Shown here: positions 5,060-22,742 of the stretch, in pieces
Layout: each line of letters starts with the position of its first letter
Position numbering within the stretch: position 1 is the stretch's first letter
Source: Paraglaciecola sp.
Lineage (GTDB): Bacteria; Pseudomonadota; Gammaproteobacteria; Enterobacterales; Alteromonadaceae
Reading direction: 5' to 3'
DNA length: 33,353 nt
Assembly: GCA_009993955.1 (NCBI GenBank)
Contig: JAACSL010000036.1
Coordinates: forward strand, 1-33,353
Translations under genes and position numbers: made by a program
The notes under the pieces: generated by a model
What the model was told of the DNA's origin: nothing
Databases searched by the model: none
The model's input: the letters and a program-made list of their open reading frames with translations, nothing else

Positions 5060-5101
5060 TTACACAATGTTAAGCAACCATTGTTTAGAGCTATCCCTGC
5101 G

Positions 5102-6241
5102 GTGAGTCAATTTAGCCCTCACGATCATGCCATGATGGCCTTAGCGCTACAATTGGCTAAACGCGGCCAATACAGCACCACACCCAATCCTAATGTTGGC
5201 TGTGTCATCAGCGATGACAAGGGCGACATTGTGGGTCAAGGTTGGCACCACAAGGCAGGCTCAGCCCATGCTGAGGTGCATGCTTTGAACCAAGCTGGAC
5301 AAAAAGCAACAGGGGCCACCGCTTACGTCACGCTTGAACCCTGCAGTCATACTGGCCGCACGCCACCTTGTGCAAATGCATTGATAAAAGCAGGGATTAA
5401 ACGCGTGGTGGCCGCCATGGTTGATCCAAATCCACTGGTGGCGGGTAAAGGTTTAGCTTTATTAAGGGCTGAAAAAATTGAAACTGCCTCAGGTCTATTG
5501 GCTAGCCAAGCTGCACAACTGAATCGCGGTTTTATAAAACGCATGCAAACGGGACTACCCTGGGTAACGGTTAAACTGGCCGCCAGCGTGGACGGTAAGA
5601 CAGCCCTTGCAAACGGGCAAAGCAAGTGGATAACTGGCCCGCTAGCACGACAAGATGTGCAGCGCCATCGGGCAGCGAGTTGTGCGATTTTGACGGGCTC
5701 GGGGACGGTATTGGCCGATGATCCTGGGCTTGATGTGCGTTACACAGAGTTAGGACTCAGTGCCAACCGACTGGCAGAAAAAGACTTGCGGCAACCATTA
5801 AAAATTATTTTAGATGGGCGCAATCAAATGGGGCCGGGGCTTCGCTGTTTGCAGCAAGGTTCGGGGGCAAGTTTGATTATCAATAGTCGAGTTAATACCA
5901 GTGCCTTTGCCAGCAATGTTAGCCAATGGCAAGCTCCCTACACACACAATAAATTAGATTTGTCAGCGGTGATCCATTATCTGGGAAGTCTGCATCTCAA
6001 TCACATTTGGGTTGAGGCTGGGGCAACCTTGGCAGGGGCTTTATTGGAAAATCGTTTAGTGGATGAGTTGATTTTATATCAAGCGCCCAAACTTATAGGC
6101 AGCGCGGGGCGAGACCTATTTCAGATAACGCCACTGACTGACATGCAACAGGTGATTGACTTGCAATGGCAAGACATTCGGCAGATAGGTGATGATTTAA
6201 AACTAAGTGCTAAGGTTATGTATGCCAAAGCAAATGAGTAA
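5102..6241 (+). CDS. ribD: Bifunctional riboflavin pyrimidine deaminase/reductase RibD
   Basis: RibD deaminates and then reduces the pyrimidine product of GTP cyclohydrolase II, the second and third steps of riboflavin synthesis. The N-terminal cytidine-deaminase-like domain (about 1-150) has the zinc signature: His56-Ala-Glu58, Cys81 and Cys90 in the EPCSHTGRTPPC motif. The C-terminal domain (about 155-375) is the DHFR-like reductase, beginning WVTVKLAASVDGKTA. The start is uncertain: a TTG at 5081 has no good ribosome site, while the GTG at 5102 gives MSQFSPHDHAMM, close to what I recall of relatives, with AGAG about 11 bases upstream. I chose the GTG, giving 379 residues. It follows nrdR by about 40 bases and precedes ribE by 8. 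Confidence 0.95.
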   Translation: MSQFSPHDHAMMALALQLAKRGQYSTTPNPNVGCVISDDKGDIVGQGWHHKAGSAHAEVHALNQAGQKATGATAYVTLEPCSHTGRTPPCANALIKAGIKRVVAAMVDPNPLVAGKGLALLRAEKIETASGLLASQAAQLNRGFIKRMQTGLPWVTVKLAASVDGKTALANGQSKWITGPLARQDVQRHRAASCAILTGSGTVLADDPGLDVRYTELGLSANRLAEKDLRQPLKIILDGRNQMGPGLRCLQQGSGASLIINSRVNTSAFASNVSQWQAPYTHNKLDLSAVIHYLGSLHLNHIWVEAGATLAGALLENRLVDELILYQAPKLIGSAGRDLFQITPLTDMQQVIDLQWQDIRQIGDDLKLSAKVMYAKANE

Positions 6242-16123: not shown

Positions 16124-16678
16124 TTATTCTTGATTACAGCGACGTAGCGGAGCTGTTTTATCAAAAAATATCGATATTTCGGCAACGGTGATCCCAAGTT
16201 TTTGCATATAAGACCGGTTCATCACGCGATTGTCGTCCAGTCTAAACATCCAATCGTCCACCGCAAAATCATAGGTCGAATCACCAACCGGCACCTGTAA
16301 GGTGTATTGCCAGTTAAACGCGGCGCCTTGCTCATTGCCAGTGGCTTGACCCACCACATCGCCGGCTGTGCCAGTGATGGAGCCATCAGGCTGAATTTGA
16401 ATGCTCCAAATGCGTGTTTGCTGCTCACCATCGTCAAAATAAAAGGACTCATGTAATTGGCCTGCATTTCCTTGCCACGTTCCCACAAGGTCAACACAGA
16501 AATGTCGGGTCATTTTGCCCGTGTAATCTTGCAGAATACCCCAAGCTGTAAGCTCACCGTTAAAATAATCAGGCAGGTCAAACTTGGGTTGACTGGCTTG
16601 GTAATCACTGAGCTCAACAGAACAAGACAACAAGGTGCTACTCATCACTGTAATGGCCAGCGCCGGTAAGATTCGCAT
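16124..16678 (-). CDS. DUF3833 family lipoprotein
   Basis: A 184-residue lipoprotein: the signal peptide ends L-L-S-C with the lipidated cysteine at 19. The mature part has features I associate with DUF3833: FDLPDYFNGELTAWGILQDYTGKMTRHF near the N terminus, an aromatic beta-rich middle (FYFDDGEQQTRIWSI), and WMFRLDDNRVMNRSYMQKLGI near the end. Its function is not established. It is the last gene of the five-gene operon and starts 2 bases after the chalcone-isomerase-like gene. DUF3833 genes are often found beside cfa, DUF1365 and an FAD oxidase in gammaproteobacteria, which suggests a role in envelope lipid modification or transfer; that is inference. Confidence 0.85.
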   Translation of the reverse strand: MRILPALAITVMSSTLLSCSVELSDYQASQPKFDLPDYFNGELTAWGILQDYTGKMTRHFCVDLVGTWQGNAGQLHESFYFDDGEQQTRIWSIQIQPDGSITGTAGDVVGQATGNEQGAAFNWQYTLQVPVGDSTYDFAVDDWMFRLDDNRVMNRSYMQKLGITVAEISIFFDKTAPLRRCNQE

Positions 16679-16680
16679 GG

Positions 16681-17181
16681 TTACTTTCCTATTAGTTTTT
16701 GGCGCAGCTTGGGATAGCTACATTTTTCATCCAACCAAATCCGTAAAAAGTTAGGGCCAAAATCACGGTCGTCAATGGTCGCAAGTGATTGGTTGTTAAA
16801 GAAAAAATCACTACTTCGATCGTTGTTAACGACGATGGTTAACTCATCGCCTTTTTTAATGTCGGGCCACAAGGTTTTAAGTTGTGTCAACCAAGGCGCA
16901 GTTTGCTGTTTGCTGATCCCCAGCTTTTGCCACTCTTCTCCAGTGCGTTCCACCAAATCGTCGGCCTGAATATTCCGCAAATAATGGATCTTTAAAGCAA
17001 GGGGGTAAGTATCGAGTTGATACTGTCCGTCGTCACTGTAAAGTTCCGACTCATACACATCCCAAAACAGCACTTCTAATTTTGCTTGGCCAACTTTTTT
17101 AAGTTCAGCGACAGGACTCGCCATACCTACTCCGTTTAGTAAAACCATCAATATTAAAGCTAACAAGCTCTTTAATGGCAT
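16681..17181 (-). CDS. Chalcone-isomerase-like exported protein
   Basis: A 166-residue protein with a signal peptide (hydrophobic LLALILMVLLNGVGMAS, about 1-22), so likely periplasmic. The rest matches the bacterial chalcone-isomerase-like fold family: VGQAKLEVLFWDVYESELYSDDGQYQ, then PLALKIHYLRNIQADDLVERTGEEWQKLG, and a C-terminal FLRIWLDEKCSYPKLRQKLIG. Bacterial members of this fold are not flavonoid enzymes; plant relatives of the fold bind fatty acids, so lipid binding is a fair guess in this operon. It follows cfa by 47 bases and precedes the DUF3833 gene by 2. Confidence 0.82.
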   Translation of the reverse strand: MPLKSLLALILMVLLNGVGMASPVAELKKVGQAKLEVLFWDVYESELYSDDGQYQLDTYPLALKIHYLRNIQADDLVERTGEEWQKLGISKQQTAPWLTQLKTLWPDIKKGDELTIVVNNDRSSDFFFNNQSLATIDDRDFGPNFLRIWLDEKCSYPKLRQKLIGK

Positions 17182-17228
17182 AACTCAAATTTCTCCTGTT
17201 GGTCTTAACCGGCACCTCGGCTAAAGAT

Positions 17229-18482
17229 TTAGCGAACAAGGGGCGCAACGTACGCCGGTTTGCTGACGACAAGTTGCACGGTGCTGATGGTGCGCTCTAA
17301 AAAGCCGCCCTCACAGTAACTAAAGTAGTAGCGCCACATGTTCATAAAGCGATCGTCGTAGCCATCTTTCGCCAATACATCCTTGTTAGCCATAAGTCTG
17401 TGGTGCCAATGTTGCAAAGTTTTTGCGTAATCTAAACCAATGTCGTGCAAATCACGGATCATCATATCTGTGTATTTGCGTAAATGCTGGTTAATCAGCA
17501 ACTGGGAAGGAAGGAACCCTCCCGGAAATATGTGTTTTTGAATGAAGTCCACGCTTTTACTATAACTATCAAAACGTTGGTCACTAATAGTAATGGCTTG
17601 TAACAGCATTAAACCCTGATGTTTCAATAGAGTGGAGCATTTTTCAAAGAAAGTAGGTAGGTATTCTTTTCCTACCGCTTCGATCATTTCAATGGACACC
17701 AACTTATCGTATTGGCCTTCCAGCAAACGGTAGTCCTTTTTCAGCAAGGTTATTTGTTGTTGTAAACCTTCACGTTCTACCCAATCTTGCGCGTACTTGT
17801 GCTGTTCTTCAGAAATCGTGGTTGTGGTCACTTTGCACCCATAGTGTTTGGCGGCGAATACAGCTAACCCTCCCCAACCTGTGCCAATCTCCAACAAATG
17901 ATCGTTTTCACTCAATTGCAATTTGTCGCAGATAGCTTTGAGTTTGGTATGTTGCGCTTGCTCTAGTGACGACTCAGGGCTGGGATAAATGGCACTAGAA
18001 TACATCATGCTTTCATCGAGAAAGCGGGTATACAATTTATTCCCTAAATCATAATGAGCAGCAATATTCTTCTTGGCTTGTATGGCAGAATTGCGATTGG
18101 CAAAATGCATTACCTTACGAACGGGTAGGGCAAGCCATTCCATTTTGGCTTCCCACGCGTCAAGCATGTCAAGATTTCTGGCGAAGATACGAATAACGTT
18201 TGTTAAATTTGGGGTAGTCCACAATCCTTCTGAGAACGTCTCACCGGATGCCACGCTACCGCCAAATAATAATCGGCGATACACACTGATATCCAAAAAA
18301 TCGATTTCTGCGTGTAGATCGCTATTTTTTTCGCCGAAGGTGTTAACCAATACGCCGCGTTCTTTGATGACCATTTGTCCGCGTGGCAAACTGGCAAAAA
18401 TTCTCAACATAATGTTGCGACACATTCTATCTGACCATGAACTGTCACTGCTTACCTCGAGGGTTTGCTCTAAGTCTGACAT
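17229..18482 (-). CDS. cfa: Cyclopropane-fatty-acyl-phospholipid synthase family
   Basis: A SAM-dependent enzyme that methylates the double bond of membrane phospholipid acyl chains, usually to a cyclopropane ring. It has 417 residues, longer than E. coli Cfa (382). The N-terminal lipid-binding domain (about 1-130) is followed by AHYDLGN (142-148), the SAM motif LEIGTGWGG (197-205), SIEMIEAVG (263-271), FIQKHIFPGG (313-322) and the conserved Cys390 in the YYFSYCEGGF region. In Rhodobacter, Cfa-like proteins in the RpoE/ChrR regulon make methylated and furan fatty acids, so this copy may make something other than cyclopropane. It starts 2 bases after DUF1365 with an AAGAAG site. Confidence 0.94.
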   Translation of the reverse strand: MSDLEQTLEVSSDSSWSDRMCRNIMLRIFASLPRGQMVIKERGVLVNTFGEKNSDLHAEIDFLDISVYRRLLFGGSVASGETFSEGLWTTPNLTNVIRIFARNLDMLDAWEAKMEWLALPVRKVMHFANRNSAIQAKKNIAAHYDLGNKLYTRFLDESMMYSSAIYPSPESSLEQAQHTKLKAICDKLQLSENDHLLEIGTGWGGLAVFAAKHYGCKVTTTTISEEQHKYAQDWVEREGLQQQITLLKKDYRLLEGQYDKLVSIEMIEAVGKEYLPTFFEKCSTLLKHQGLMLLQAITISDQRFDSYSKSVDFIQKHIFPGGFLPSQLLINQHLRKYTDMMIRDLHDIGLDYAKTLQHWHHRLMANKDVLAKDGYDDRFMNMWRYYFSYCEGGFLERTISTVQLVVSKPAYVAPLVR

Positions 18483-18484
18483 AT

Positions 18485-19213
18485 TTACTTCTTACCTTGT
18501 GCTGGGTGGCCATAAAATGGCACGCGTTTAACAAACAGTTTTAAAGCTTGCCAATAAATGCCCACAACGGTTTTTATTGTCATGCTGGGTATGTTCATCA
18601 CTACGCGTTTGAGCGTAGAAGAGTTCAATGGCTGTTTGCACAAATCCAATGCCGCAACAAAATGTTTGCTTTGTTGGTGGCAAGACAACGTTAACCTTAG
18701 TTGTTGCATAGGCTGTGAAATCTTCCATTTATAGGTCATATCCATGGGGTTAAACGGCGATACATGAAAAGCTTTTTGACTGTCTAGTTGTTGGTTTAAG
18801 TCGACGAGATAACAATGTCGTTCATTCCATGGTGTATTGCTGACTTCTGCCAATAGATGACTATAGTGACCATTCTCCTGCTGCAAGTAATAAAAGTTCA
18901 CAGGACTAAAATACCAACCTAGGGTACGTAATGGGCTCAATAAAAATACCGATCCATGTAACTCAGTCCCAGCTAACGCTGACATTTTTTCCAAAACGCT
19001 TTGCTGCAAGGGTGTATCTGGGCTACCTAAATAATCACTGCGTTTAAAACGAATGGGCGCCCATCTTGACGTTGAAAACCAGCTAACGTTCTTTTCGATG
19101 TCGGCTAGTTCATCAAGCTTGATCCACAGCAGAAAAATACTGTAACTAAAATGATGTTTTTTGGGCACCAGTCGACTGTGCACCACTTGTCCCTGGTAAA
19201 TGGCACTTTCCAT
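18485..19213 (-). CDS. DUF1365 family protein
   Basis: A 242-residue protein of the DUF1365 family, unknown in biochemistry and nearly always beside an FAD amine oxidase and a cfa gene. Family features are the start SAIYQGQVVHSRLVPKKHHFSYSIF, the FLLSPLRTLGWYFSPVNFYYL block, WNERHCYL, and KAFHVSPFNPMDMTYKW. I chose the ATG at 19213, which overlaps the stop of the upstream gene as TGATG; an upstream ATG at 19240 would add nine residues without a ribosome site. The overlap suggests translational coupling and fixed stoichiometry with the oxidase. A role in modifying or handling fatty-acyl chains with the oxidase and Cfa is likely but unproven. Confidence 0.9.
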   Translation of the reverse strand: MESAIYQGQVVHSRLVPKKHHFSYSIFLLWIKLDELADIEKNVSWFSTSRWAPIRFKRSDYLGSPDTPLQQSVLEKMSALAGTELHGSVFLLSPLRTLGWYFSPVNFYYLQQENGHYSHLLAEVSNTPWNERHCYLVDLNQQLDSQKAFHVSPFNPMDMTYKWKISQPMQQLRLTLSCHQQSKHFVAALDLCKQPLNSSTLKRVVMNIPSMTIKTVVGIYWQALKLFVKRVPFYGHPAQGKK

Positions 19214-20511
19214 CACAAAGTGGCACCAAAACGCGCACAAACATCCAATGCACTGCGCACACCGTCTTCATGAAAACCGTTGTACCAATACGCCCCACAA
19301 AAATGCAGACCTTGTTGCCCACAGATTTCGTCACGTCTCTCTTGTGCAGCGATTGTCGCGTGGTTGAATTGCGGGTGACTGTAATGGTAGATGCCAAGGA
19401 TTTTATCCGCCGCAATGCCTTTTGTATTGTTAAGGGTCACACAAAACGCTGTTTTGCTCTCAATTTTTTGCAAGATATTCATGTTGTACGTTAATACAGC
19501 AGGGGCTTCTTGCTCACCAGCTTCACCACTAAGCGCATAGTTCCAACTTGCCCAGGCCAGTTTTCGTTTCGGTAATACCTGCGTATCAGTGTGCAATACT
19601 ACTTCGTTTGCAGCATAGGGAATGCTACCCAATATGCTTCGTTGTTGCTCTGTAGCTTGACTGAGCATGGCTAAGGCTTGGTCACTGTGGCAAGCAAAAA
19701 TTACCTCGTCAAAATACTCAATGTGTTCATCAGCAGACGAGCTTTTTGTGGTCAGCGCATAACGTGTCGCCGCGTTATCATCGCCGGCTTGCACGGGAAC
19801 GACCCCCATGACGGGACGATTTAACTGTATTTTGTCAGCAAACCCTTGAATGAGAGGCGCGATATACTGCTTAGAACCGCCAACAATGGTGTACCACTGC
19901 GGCCGATTAGTTATGTTGAGTAGGCCGTGGTTGTTAAAAAAGCGTAGGAAAAAACCAAGAGGAAAGCTTTTAATTTCAGCGAGGCTAGTGGACCAAATAG
20001 CTGCGCACATTGGTAAAATATAATTGTAGCAAAAGTCGTGACTCAACCGATGCGTATGGATGAAATCCATTAATGTTTGGCCGTCGGTATCTCGCTTTTT
20101 GCTCAGGTATTGTTTACACAGCTTATTAAACCGCACTATGTCGCGAACGATGCGCAAAAAACGAGGGCGCAATATATTGCGGCGTTGGGCAAACAAGCTA
20201 TTTAAGGTATTGCCATTGTATTCAATATTTTGTGTTTTATTTTTGACGCTAAAACTCATTTCTGTCGCTTGAGCACTAACACCCAATTTCTGCATGAGTT
20301 TGATAAAATTAGGGTAAGTCCAGTCGTTGTATACAATGAAGCCGGTGTCCACTGCATAACGTTTACCTTCTACTTCGACGTCTTTAGTTGCCGTGTGGCC
20401 ACCAATGTAATCATTGGCCTCAAACACCGTTATATTGTGTTGCGAATGCAGGAAATGTGCACAGGTCAATCCAGAAATACCTGAGCCAATTATCGCAATG
20501 TTTTTTCTCAT
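19213..20511 (-). CDS. FAD-dependent amine oxidase-like (NAD(P)-binding) protein
   Basis: A 432-residue flavoprotein. The N terminus has the dinucleotide-binding motif IAIIGSGISGL (Gly9, Gly11, Gly14), then VFEANDYIGGHTAT (30s-40s), typical of the amine oxidase/phytoene-desaturase-like superfamily, and DTGFIVYNDWTYPNF. The C-terminal FAD contact region includes LHFCGAYWYNGFHEDGVRSA. Family members are encoded with DUF1365 and cfa; in Rhodobacter related genes belong to the RpoE/ChrR singlet-oxygen regulon and to methylated or furan fatty-acid formation. A fatty-acyl desaturation or oxidation is more likely than true amine oxidation. It is the first gene of the operon, with a sigma/ChrR-type promoter 74-103 bases upstream. 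Confidence 0.9.
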   Translation of the reverse strand: MRKNIAIIGSGISGLTCAHFLHSQHNITVFEANDYIGGHTATKDVEVEGKRYAVDTGFIVYNDWTYPNFIKLMQKLGVSAQATEMSFSVKNKTQNIEYNGNTLNSLFAQRRNILRPRFLRIVRDIVRFNKLCKQYLSKKRDTDGQTLMDFIHTHRLSHDFCYNYILPMCAAIWSTSLAEIKSFPLGFFLRFFNNHGLLNITNRPQWYTIVGGSKQYIAPLIQGFADKIQLNRPVMGVVPVQAGDDNAATRYALTTKSSSADEHIEYFDEVIFACHSDQALAMLSQATEQQRSILGSIPYAANEVVLHTDTQVLPKRKLAWASWNYALSGEAGEQEAPAVLTYNMNILQKIESKTAFCVTLNNTKGIAADKILGIYHYSHPQFNHATIAAQERRDEICGQQGLHFCGAYWYNGFHEDGVRSALDVCARFGATL

Positions 20512-20584
20512 GTTTTACTTACCTGTTTTTTTAATTGATGCTTGCAACGTTTGCCACCTGAGTAACATAACGGATTTCATGCCT

Positions 20585-20614
20585 TCAATACCAACAATAA
20601 CGAATTTGAGATCA
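20585..20614 (-). promoter_or_regulatory. ECF sigma-type promoter for the lipid operon
   Basis: On the minus strand TGATCT (20614-20609), exactly 18 bases, then TATTGA (20590-20585). The start of transcription would be near 20578, about 67 bases before the oxidase ATG. The -35 and spacing match the site in front of the sigma gene and resemble the Rhodobacter RpoE consensus (TGATCC with a TA-rich -10). Confidence 0.65.
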
Positions 20615-20676
20615 AATTGGCCGGCGATAGCAGCAAGTCGAATCAATGGGGCTAAGATAGTTAAAAATTGCCAACG

Positions 20677-20706
20677 CGATCCAAAATAGATTCAGGGGCG
20701 TAAACA
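20677..20706 (+). promoter_or_regulatory. ECF sigma-type promoter for the LON-domain gene
   Basis: CGATCC (20677-20682), 18 bases, TAAACA (20701-20706). The spacing equals that of the other two sites and the -35 differs at one base from TGATCC. It points towards the LON-domain gene 22 bases downstream and is divergent from the lipid-operon promoter, 62 bases away. Confidence 0.5.
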
Positions 20707-20728
20707 CCACCATTGACAGCCTTAATTC

Positions 20729-21313
20729 ATGAAAGTAATGACATTCGACACCTTTCCTCTTTTCCCTTTATCAGCGCATTTGATGCCCGGCGGTCGCTTG
20801 GCCTTGCGTATTTTTGAACCACGCTACGTGCGCATGGTGAAAGAGGCTTGTGCAAACGGAACGGGTTTTGGCATTTGTATGCTAAACCCCAAAGGTGACA
20901 AATTAAAAAATGAACACATTTATCCCATCGGCACTTACGCGACGGTGGTGGATTTTGACCGGCTTGACGACGGTTTACTCGGCATCACAGTGGAAGGACA
21001 ACGCTGTTTCAAAATCAGTGATATACAAACTCAAGAAGATGGCTTGAGAGTAGGCAAGTGCGAATGGTTAGAGAATTGGCACAACCCTACCAGAGCAGAT
21101 AATCTTGATTTGGCCCGCCTTCGGTTGCAGGAAATATTTGATAAATATAATGAACTCAACAAGTTGTACAGCCAGCCTCAATTTGACCAAGCTCTGTGGG
21201 TCATCTATCGGTGGTTAGAGTTGTTGCCAGTAGGGGCAGAGCAAAAACAAGTTTTATTGGCTGATAAAGATTGTGTGAATGCCATGCGTTTTCTGACACA
21301 ATTGGTCGAGTGA
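20729..21313 (+). CDS. LON substrate-binding-domain protein
   Basis: A 194-residue protein with only the N-terminal LON (PUA-like) domain and no ATPase or protease part. It begins MTFDTFPLFPLSAHLMPGGRLALRIFEPRYVRMVKEA, the family signature, followed by ICMLNPKGD, IGTYATVVDFDRLDDGLLGITVEGQRCFKI and the helical C-terminal half ending in the CVNAMRFLTQLVE region. Such stand-alone proteins have no known enzyme function; cereblon and Lon use the domain to bind substrate or ligand. Its stop codon overlaps the -35 of the sigma-factor promoter, and it has its own site of the same kind, so it probably belongs to the ChrR regulon. A second ATG three codons in (20738) is possible. Confidence 0.88.
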   Translation: MKVMTFDTFPLFPLSAHLMPGGRLALRIFEPRYVRMVKEACANGTGFGICMLNPKGDKLKNEHIYPIGTYATVVDFDRLDDGLLGITVEGQRCFKISDIQTQEDGLRVGKCEWLENWHNPTRADNLDLARLRLQEIFDKYNELNKLYSQPQFDQALWVIYRWLELLPVGAEQKQVLLADKDCVNAMRFLTQLVE

Positions 21314-21340
21314 TCTTTTTTTAACTACTGCCAGTATTTA
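21311..21340 (+). promoter_or_regulatory. Autoregulatory ECF sigma-type promoter
   Basis: TGATCT (21311-21316), 18 bases, TATTTA (21335-21340). The predicted transcript starts near 21347, about 20 bases before the sigma-factor ATG and just before its AGGGG ribosome site (21356-21360). The T-G-A of the -35 is the stop codon of the LON-domain gene. Self-transcription is usual for ECF sigma factors. Confidence 0.68.
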
Positions 21341-21366
21341 TTATAAATAATCAGCAGGGGTAGTTA

Positions 21367-21975
21367 ATGTTAGTCGGAATACCTTTGGAATCTACTACAA
21401 ATTATACAGCGAAGCCCATTGACTGTGCTGACGAAATGTCTGTGCATCTTACAGATATAGCCAACAGCCGAAGCCAGAAAGCATTTGCTGAAGTTTTTAG
21501 TTACTTTGCGCCACGATTGCGTTCTTACGCCCTCAAACAAATGGGCAACGAAGCCTTGGCTATGGAGTTGGTGCAAGACACCATGGCAAATGTATGGCAA
21601 AAATCCCATCTGTTTGATGCCGAAAAAGGCTCACCATCCACTTGGATATTCACCATCGCTCGGAACATTCGCTTTGATTTACTACGCAAGCAGCGTAATC
21701 GCAAAGAGGATATCTGTGCCGACGACTTGTGGCCAGTGTTGTGCGAACAGACTGCTGATGTAAACGAAGTGGCACTAGACCATCAAGTGACACTCGACGA
21801 AATTAATATCATGTTTACTCGCTTGCCAGACAAACAGCAGCAAGTCATTGAAGCTATTTACCTTGAAGGAAAATCGCAGCAAGAAGTGGCTGACGAAATG
21901 AACATTCCCCTTGGAACCGTAAAATCTAGAACCCGTTTGGCGCTTCAACGCCTAAAAGAGATGTTAGACGAATGA
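21367..21975 (+). CDS. ECF RNA polymerase sigma factor, RpoE/ChrR type
   Basis: A 202-residue ECF sigma factor with region 2 (about 30-100; FAPRLRSYALKQMGNEALAMELVQDTMANVWQKSHLF, WIFTIARNIRFDLLRKQ) and region 4 (about 140-200; LPDKQQQVIEAIYLEGKSQQEVADEMNIPLGTVKSR, the helix-turn-helix). The ATG at 21367 has an AGGGG site 6 bases upstream. Its stop overlaps the start of a ChrR-type anti-sigma factor as ATGA, so this is the ECF group that answers singlet oxygen in Rhodobacter. I infer that it drives the divergent lipid operon and its own operon. The name rpoE would be confusing with the envelope-stress sigma factor, so no symbol is given. Confidence 0.95.
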   Translation: MLVGIPLESTTNYTAKPIDCADEMSVHLTDIANSRSQKAFAEVFSYFAPRLRSYALKQMGNEALAMELVQDTMANVWQKSHLFDAEKGSPSTWIFTIARNIRFDLLRKQRNRKEDICADDLWPVLCEQTADVNEVALDHQVTLDEINIMFTRLPDKQQQVIEAIYLEGKSQQEVADEMNIPLGTVKSRTRLALQRLKEMLDE

Positions 21976-22640
21976 TAAACTTTCACCCATCTACGCAGCA
22001 ACTAGATGATTTTGTTGCGGGCAATTGTGAGCCAACTTTGGCTTTGATGATTTCTGCTCATGCCGACATGTGTAGCCACTGCATGGCGAAATGCCAACAA
22101 CTACAAAATATTCAATCAGTTGGCGCGATGAGCGATGTGCCAACTGATCATGGGCCTGATTTTTCGGCCATGATGGCGCGTATCGTACAAATGCCCAGTG
22201 CGCCCGGTTTAACCACGCTGTCAGCCAAGCAGGCGTCAATCGAGCTTGACGGTAAGCAGTTTGTTTTGCCACGCGCTTTACGCCCATATGTCAAGAAAAC
22301 AGGTGATTGGTCGCGGCTGGTTGGTAAGCTTTGGCAGGCGCCAGTCGACATGGGTGATTTGGGGCGCGCTAACTTCATTTACATGGAAAAAGGCGGCAAA
22401 GTGCCAGAGCATACCCATATGGGTACAGAAATCACCCTAGTGATTGATGGGCAGTACAGCGATGGCATGGCTCACTATGATTGCGGCGATCTTACGGTCT
22501 TAGACGGTCAACACAAACATCTGCCACATTCTGAAGCAGACGAAGGATGTTTGGTATTCAGTATCGTCGATAAACCGTTGTTCTTTACTGCAGGTATAGC
22601 TCGATTACTTAATCCGTTTAGCAACTTATTTTTTAAATAG
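21972..22640 (+). CDS. chrR: ChrR-type zinc anti-sigma factor
   Basis: ChrR binds the ECF sigma factor and releases it on singlet-oxygen stress. It has 222 residues. The N-terminal anti-sigma domain has a zinc site: His5, His30, Cys34, Cys37, each one residue before the ligands known in Rhodobacter sphaeroides ChrR (6, 31, 35, 38). The C-terminal cupin has His147, His149, Glu153 and His183, a constant shift of six from the Rhodobacter ligands, in the EHTHMGTE and QHKHLPH motifs; Cys193 lies near the Rhodobacter cysteine pair. All key residues are present, so it should be functional. It overlaps the sigma gene by four bases and is followed by a strong terminator. Confidence 0.95.
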   Translation: MINFHPSTQQLDDFVAGNCEPTLALMISAHADMCSHCMAKCQQLQNIQSVGAMSDVPTDHGPDFSAMMARIVQMPSAPGLTTLSAKQASIELDGKQFVLPRALRPYVKKTGDWSRLVGKLWQAPVDMGDLGRANFIYMEKGGKVPEHTHMGTEITLVIDGQYSDGMAHYDCGDLTVLDGQHKHLPHSEADEGCLVFSIVDKPLFFTAGIARLLNPFSNLFFK

Positions 22641-22691
22641 GTACGTCTAATAACCAAGTCTTCTCATTAAGTTGGGTAGCAAAATAAGTAC

Positions 22692-22721
22692 AAAAAAAGC
22701 GCCAACTGTGGCGCTTTTTTT
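22692..22721. terminator. Bidirectional intrinsic terminator between chrR and bamD
   Basis: The stem agcgcc/ggcgct around aactgt has an A-run before and seven T after, so it can stop both the chrR transcript and the opposing bamD transcript. Confidence 0.92.
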
Positions 22722-22742
22722 ATGCAAATCAGCAATTAACGC

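Follow-up and report, generated by a model that had tools for sequence, protein, structure and literature searches.

The window analysed here is one entire contig of Paraglaciecola sp. (JAACSL010000036.1; C71; 33,353 bases), from a member of the family Alteromonadaceae whose same-genus relatives are named Paraglaciecola. Between a MotB-like gene and bamD it carries eight genes, five on the minus strand and three on the plus strand, which in all likelihood belong to an ECF11 RpoE/ChrR regulon: an extracytoplasmic function (ECF) sigma factor gene with chrR, a gene for a Lon-domain protein (LON), and a divergent lipid operon, probably of furan type, each under a TGATCY-N16-NGTA promoter.

The plus-strand group begins with LON (20729-21313), which encodes a stand-alone Lon N-terminal, substrate-binding domain (PF02190, E 4e-25) and has an alternative ATG start at 20738. 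It is followed after a short gap, in the same direction, by the sigma gene (21367-21975) and by chrR (21972-22640), whose start overlaps the sigma gene by 4 bases. A strong terminator-like hairpin with a 15-pair stem and a T tail, reported on the minus strand, lies in the gap between chrR and bamD (22690-22723). The operon runs on the minus strand from a flavin amine-oxidase-family gene (19213-20511; PF01593, E 9e-20) through a DUF1365 gene (18485-19240; PF07103, E 2e-77), a gene for a methyltransferase of the cyclopropane fatty acid (CFA) synthase family (17229-18482; PF02353, E 6e-83) and a chalcone-isomerase-like gene (16681-17181; PF16036, E 1e-12) to a final DUF3833 gene (16124-16678; PF12915, E 4e-64). 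The promoter sites are TGATCT-N16-GGTATT before the operon (20585-20614, minus strand), CGATCC-N16-CGTAAA before LON (20677-20706, plus strand) and TGATCT-N16-AGTATT before sigma-chrR (21311-21340, plus strand), the first base of the last falling on the LON stop codon.

The sigma factor and its ChrR

Judged by its sequence, the sigma-chrR pair, described in the initial annotation as an ECF sigma/ChrR system, is a standard ECF11 RpoE/ChrR pair. The best match of the sigma factor in the PDB is Rhodobacter sphaeroides RpoE (2q1z, E 1e-33), ahead of the next PDB sequence (E 5e-14). The ChrR scores 158.5 bits against TIGR02451 (cut-off 124.5) and has R. sphaeroides ChrR as its best PDB match (2z2s, E 4e-16). 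All eight zinc ligands are present: H5, H30, C34 and C37 of the anti-sigma domain (His6, His31, Cys35 and Cys38 in R. sphaeroides), kept in 91 of 91 aligned rows, and H147, H149, E153 and H183 of the cupin domain (His141, His143, Glu147 and His177 in R. sphaeroides), kept in 88 of 91. Three Alteromonas ChrR proteins (loci L073, L076 and L079) have lost three of the four cupin ligands; these loci are also without the promoter before sigma, and their Lon-domain proteins are the most diverged (41-44% identity) of the first of the two cassette types described below.

Promoter motifs and their spacing

Three hexamer pairs separated by an identical 18 bases had been proposed to mark the regulon, and we found them at 21311-21340 (plus), 20614-20585 (minus) and 20677-20706 (plus). 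The common spacing stood, but not its register: the published promoter form for this sigma class is TGATCC-N16-CGTA (Pseudomonas syringae, by chromatin immunoprecipitation sequencing, PMC5507510; Shewanella oneidensis, PMC4336711), and the second hexamer had been drawn two bases late. Compared with this form, two of the window sites have A or G in place of the C of CGTA; in the first hexamer, one site starts with C instead of T and two end in T instead of C.

Exact counts within the window are modest. TGATC-N18/19-TAWWNA occurs twice against 0.51 expected, and 10 of 100 shuffles give at least that many. When 156 sites from relatives, with the window excluded, were used to train a matrix, the three sites came second, third and fourth of 66,648 positions, and their score was reached 0.03 times per shuffle on average and at most once (30 shuffles); the training sequences are related, and the core columns were preset by the pattern used to collect them, a problem from which the spacing control described below is free. 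The position at rank 1 (5422) falls inside a coding gene, a 386-residue open reading frame at 5081-6241, and was disregarded. A scan for sigma-70 promoters gave no match in the 217-base divergent region (20512-20728), and its sole match on the coding strand before the sigma gene lies about 260 bases upstream, inside LON.

Conservation among relatives

The strongest evidence comes from related genomes. We confirmed 90 relatives of the sigma gene and retained the best 80 with their flanks, so that counts of 81 include the window; in each of the 81 we compared the sequences upstream of LON, of sigma and of whichever operon gene was recognised first. The order and strands of the CFA-family, DUF1365, flavin oxidase, LON, sigma and chrR genes are identical in 80 of 80 loci. 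TGATCH-N16-NGTA stands before the operon in 73 loci, with three more at N15 (76 of 81), and before sigma in 31, with 12 more at N15 (43 of 81). NGATCH-N16-NGTA stands before LON in 54, and the N15 form in 14, 13 of them further loci (67 of 81); by eye the LON site usually starts with C or A rather than T, making CGATCC the usual form there. All other spacings from N10 to N23 give 0 to 4 of 81, and shuffles average at most 0.8. Relatedness is equal across spacings in this control, and the spacer DNA itself differs among loci while its length stays. The expectation that the intergenic motifs would be conserved in relatives is thus borne out at N15/16. In seven Alteromonas loci (among L057-L118), GAAC-type bases followed by a GTA element take the place of the lost site ahead of sigma.

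The divergent lipid operon

By domains and gene order, the five-gene operon looks like the UfaD-UfaO-UfaM furan-fatty-acid pathway with two genes added. In Rhodobacter, RSP_1091 is UfaD and RSP_1090, described as a DUF1365 protein, is UfaO; together with UfaM (RSP_2144), the fatty acyl methylase, they are reported to make furan fatty acid (PMC6852236, PMC7380195, PMC3818230). The P. syringae counterparts of RSP_1091, RSP_1090 and RSP_2144 are annotated as a flavin-containing amine oxidase, a hypothetical protein and a CFA synthase (PMC5507510). The flavin oxidase, DUF1365 and CFA-family genes of the window, three in a row, would correspond to RSP_1091, RSP_1090 and RSP_2144 respectively, and we read the operon as one for furan fatty acids because the three Ufa families adjoin as in the published sets. 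Breakdown of Rhodobacter ChrR under singlet oxygen is reported to need RSP_1090, with RSP_1091 implicated too, and a positive loop is therefore suggested for the system of the window as well.

The head of the operon varies among relatives. In the 80 loci the first recognised gene encodes an NTF2-like protein in 70, an SDR protein in five and, as in the window, the flavin oxidase in five, all Paraglaciecola, with the promoter lying ahead of it. The NTF2-like and SDR genes that usually head the operon are absent at the window locus (20512-20728) and at the five other Paraglaciecola loci; two of the five SDR-first loci (L073 and L104) have room for an unrecognised gene. Because the window groups in the sigma tree with L043, an SDR-first locus, and apart from the five oxidase-first loci, the sequences suggest that head genes were lost more than once.

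The structure model of the UfaO-like DUF1365 protein is confident and has no clear match among the solved structures. Its invariant residues H21, R23, D69, R105, E132, H142 and Y144 could mark an active site; 19 of the 89 alignment rows, with misplaced starts, were left out.

The Lon-domain neighbour

The Lon-domain protein is modelled with a mean predicted local distance difference test (pLDDT) score of 93.6, and its best fold matches are 7cay and 1zbo, both stand-alone Lon N-domains, followed by Lon proteases and cereblon. Cereblon is a substrate receptor. One could hypothesize, and no more than that, that the Lon-domain-only protein is a receptor that delivers released ChrR to a protease. 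That an induced protein of this kind should be essential is spoken against by Rhodobacter, since ChrR breakdown there is reported to be independent of new protein synthesis. A gene of this kind, SO_1987, is also known in Shewanella, where its promoter is of the same type (PMC4336711), and the conserved neighbour may be considered a candidate participant in ChrR breakdown, one that lends itself to testing.

Probable targets elsewhere in the genome

We searched the window's own genome with three exact patterns and kept only those matches whose sites are conserved before orthologues. Most matches are put down to chance because their counts lie near those of a reversed-pattern control (12 against 4, 18 against 14 and 6 against 5). 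Three genes withstood the filter. For a photolyase gene (C49; its own site reads TGATCG), all 10 orthologues that reach 53% identity, the window genome's copy among them, have TGATCN-N16-CGTA between -58 and -79, within differing surrounding DNA; among 20 weaker matches, 11 have the looser NGATCN-N15/16-NGTA. A DUF4397/CHRD lipoprotein gene (C33) has the site in five of five orthologues of at least 69% identity, own included, and in three of 17 weaker rows, two of 24 loci (L207 and L209) having given no match in the script. A gene for an efflux membrane-fusion protein (C34) has it in three of three at 70% identity or more, own included, and in none of two weaker rows, five of 22 loci having been scanned. 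The sigma factor thus probably also serves at least three genes outside the cluster. The photolyase had been anticipated among further targets, and is probably one; the initial annotation's single regulon of eight genes keeps its shared and conserved motif before sigma-chrR, LON and the five-gene operon, but the description of it as self-contained is not supported.

The lipoprotein gene (L188:216-2657, in genome G000) encodes a lipoprotein-like protein of 813 residues, in which DUF4397 stretches occur four times and CHRD stretches three times, and has the conserved ECF11-type site upstream; our literature search found no publication on DUF4397 together with a sigma factor. Other matches fared less well. 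An intergenic match before fadE (C8) is conserved at N15/16 in eight of 21 same-genus orthologues, own included, and was not accepted as a target, though fadE may be one in that subgroup of eight; most of the 13 relatives without it look sigma-70-like by eye (TTGAYC-N16-TATTAT-like). A SOUL haem-binding gene (C49) has a match at N16, and the only other relative found among 23 genomes searched has no site. Exact-pattern matches also lie before SdhE, a phosphopantetheinyl transferase gene and etfB (names partly by eye). Neither of the genome's two other photolyase genes has an NGATCH-N15/16-NGTA or TGATC-N17-CGTA site upstream, the NGATCH scan being one that misses TGATCG. Unlike the situation described for S. 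oneidensis (PMC4336711), no NGATCH-N15/16-NGTA or TGATC-N17-CGTA stands before the two clear glutathione peroxidase genes. In six same-genus genomes (loci L177, L178, L182, L183, L184 and L186), the best photolyase shares just 33-36% identity with that of the window genome, and before this other photolyase stands a [CA]GATCTAGA site followed by GTA at N16.

Two cassette types in the family

Across 36 genomes of the family, a sigma factor of the window's type (62-100% identity) occurs in 23, a second type (40-45%) in 10, neither in three and both in none, where independence would predict about six genomes with both. One genome counted as window type, G030, lies outside the first-type clade of the sigma tree. 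UfaD was sought and not found in the three genomes with neither sigma type, one of which is 84% complete.

The second-type loci (L244-L253, against L043-L122 for the first type) repeat much of the arrangement with proteins 28-56% identical to the query set. ChrR adjoins sigma in 10 of 10, the NTF2-SDR-oxidase-DUF1365-CFA series is present in nine of 10 and the Lon-domain gene in five of 10. The same motif precedes sigma or LON in nine of 10, sigma in eight of 10, and the NTF2 gene in five of nine. The sigma tree separates the first type and leaves the second mixed with a genome of another family, in a tree drawn from a short search and with long branches. In a tree of FadE proteins from the genus (15 genomes of the first type and five of the second), at least three changes of type are needed, two of them forced by well-supported branches. 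The photolyase site is also found in the second-type genome G011 (L160), the sole direct evidence here that sites off the cassette outlive a change of type.

Few changes were seen, and the mutual exclusion of the two cassettes suggested by these sequences is suggestive, not proven. We tentatively propose, at slightly short of an even chance, that the regulon is exchanged as a whole cassette, in two diverged versions that each comprise sigma, ChrR and the lipid pathway and in many cases the Lon-domain gene. The two would replace and exclude each other among close relatives while sharing one promoter code, and an incoming sigma factor would take over off-cassette targets such as the photolyase, with a Lon-domain receptor for ChrR as a further reading. 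Exchange of cassettes with one motif would, if true, be a clean case of a regulator swapped without rewiring of its targets.

A model for the regulon and its alternatives

We infer the sigma factor as reader of these sites, together with the signal, the lipid product and the feedback. In the proposed mechanism, ChrR, a zinc anti-sigma factor, would hold the sigma factor until an oxidant, most likely singlet oxygen or an organic peroxide, causes ChrR to release it and to be degraded. Free sigma factor would then drive transcription from the TGATCY-N16-NGTA promoters of LON and the divergent operon, and sigma-chrR would be transcribed from its own promoter or, as read-through, from the LON promoter a short way upstream. 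In the membrane, the enzymes of the operon most likely turn 18:1 chains into furan fatty acids by methylation, desaturation and oxygenation, and these would scavenge the oxidant; the operon may also close a positive feedback loop through ChrR breakdown, by homology with Rhodobacter UfaO and UfaD. The sigma factor probably acts at the three or more off-cluster genes as well.

Several observations weigh against this model. The UfaD, UfaO and UfaM readings rest on domains and gene order. The C of CGTA is absent from the -10 element at two of the window's three sites, the window-only statistics for the pattern are weak and not significant, and the genome-wide counts lie near their control. The site is missing before sigma in 38 of 81 loci, before LON in 14 and before the operon in five, and all three sites occur together (at N15/16) in only 29. 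Of the five loci without an operon site, four belong to Paraglaciecola, the window's own genus, and the full site is found in six of 10 named Paraglaciecola loci; L044, L045, L049 and L052, all Paraglaciecola, keep TGATCT before the operon and have no GTA at N15/16. Genome G021 has a second-type sigma factor and ChrR, but UfaD was sought there and not found, an exception to a strict linkage of sigma and UfaD. Since four of the 10 named Paraglaciecola loci lack the complete site before the operon, we call the regulon highly probable and no more than that, and still leave its chance or sigma-70 rival a slender share.

The alternative that survives best, a serious though lesser possibility, is that the signal in Paraglaciecola is blue light, peroxide, superoxide or something else rather than singlet oxygen. 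ChrR controls a blue-light response in Vibrio cholerae (PMC5241685), and rpoE2 of S. oneidensis is induced by hydrogen peroxide, its mutant being sensitive to peroxide and paraquat (PMC4336711). Set against this, the cupin zinc site of ChrR is intact here, and Rhodobacter is reported to need that domain for the response to singlet oxygen (PMC6852236, PMC7380195, PMC3818230).

It is also conceivable, if unlikely, that the operon and LON are true targets and that sigma-chrR is expressed mainly by read-through from LON, which would make the site at 21311 redundant. LON and sigma point the same way and lie close together, and the sigma site is missing from 38 of 81 loci. In Alteromonas it has been lost from 26 of 32 loci while the sites before the operon and LON persist in all 32; there, read-through from LON would leave the loop intact. 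The site is nevertheless kept before sigma in all 10 named Paraglaciecola loci and in the window, and the second-type loci have it in eight of 10 cases.

A little less likely still is that the CFA-family enzyme acts as an ordinary cyclopropane synthase, with no furan fatty acid being made. The Shewanella (PMC4336711) and Vibrio (PMC5241685) papers do name members of their regulons CFA synthase, but the gene of the window adjoins DUF1365 and flavin-oxidase genes as in furan sets, and its product scores far below the Cfa equivalog cut-offs (280 against 600 and 279 against 400 bits). That the motifs are chance matches or housekeeping sigma-70 promoters, with the three units regulated separately, is very improbable: the shuffled windows that equal the exact count, the genome-wide numbers and the fadE look-alike in its sigma-70-like surroundings speak for it, but one spacing is kept in up to 76 of 81 loci despite differing spacer DNA, and the sigma-70 scan found nothing in the divergent region and before sigma only the distant site inside LON.

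Relation to known systems

This type of system is already known from Shewanella, Vibrio, P. syringae and Rhodobacter, and nearly the same promoter set, the Lon-domain gene included, has already been published for Shewanella (PMC4336711). In S. oneidensis, as in the window, sigma-chrR, an adjacent Lon-domain gene and a cfa operon stand under TGATCC-N16-CGTA-type promoters; a photolyase belongs to the regulon there and probably does so in the window's genome. There rpoE2, SO_1987 and the SO_3386 (phrB-cfa) operon carry the motif and rise on RpoE2 expression, and the transcription starts of rpoE2 and pgpD have been mapped (PMC4336711). S. oneidensis differs in having phrB within the operon and pgpD and hemH2 among its targets, whereas the operon of the window is adjacent, divergent and without phrB.

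The R. sphaeroides system shares with the window the sigma factor, a ChrR with both zinc sites, the core target families and the promoter type; the window differs in having ufaM-, ufaD- and ufaO-like genes in one operon, a Lon-domain gene beside sigma, and a lineage that is non-phototrophic (PMC6852236, PMC7380195, PMC3818230). P. syringae PSPTO_1043/1042 resembles it in the TGATCC-N16-CGTA motif and in an operon with cfa, RSP_1090-like and amine oxidase genes, and its candidate targets include an AcrA-family efflux gene (1.4-fold), as those of the window genome include an efflux gene; phrB, however, heads its operon, and its remaining targets are unlike (PMC5507510). In V. cholerae, too, chrR and a sigma gene form an operon controlled by ChrR, and blue light, the signal studied there, induces a CFA-synthase gene (PMC5241685). 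A further source used here is PMC12089945.

A limited literature search found no study of such a regulon in Alteromonas or Paraglaciecola. The conservation described here supports the existence, in marine bacteria that are not phototrophs, of a stress regulon of the singlet-oxygen type in which the sigma factor is coupled to an operon resembling those for furan lipids, and it adds candidate targets, among them the DUF4397/CHRD lipoprotein.

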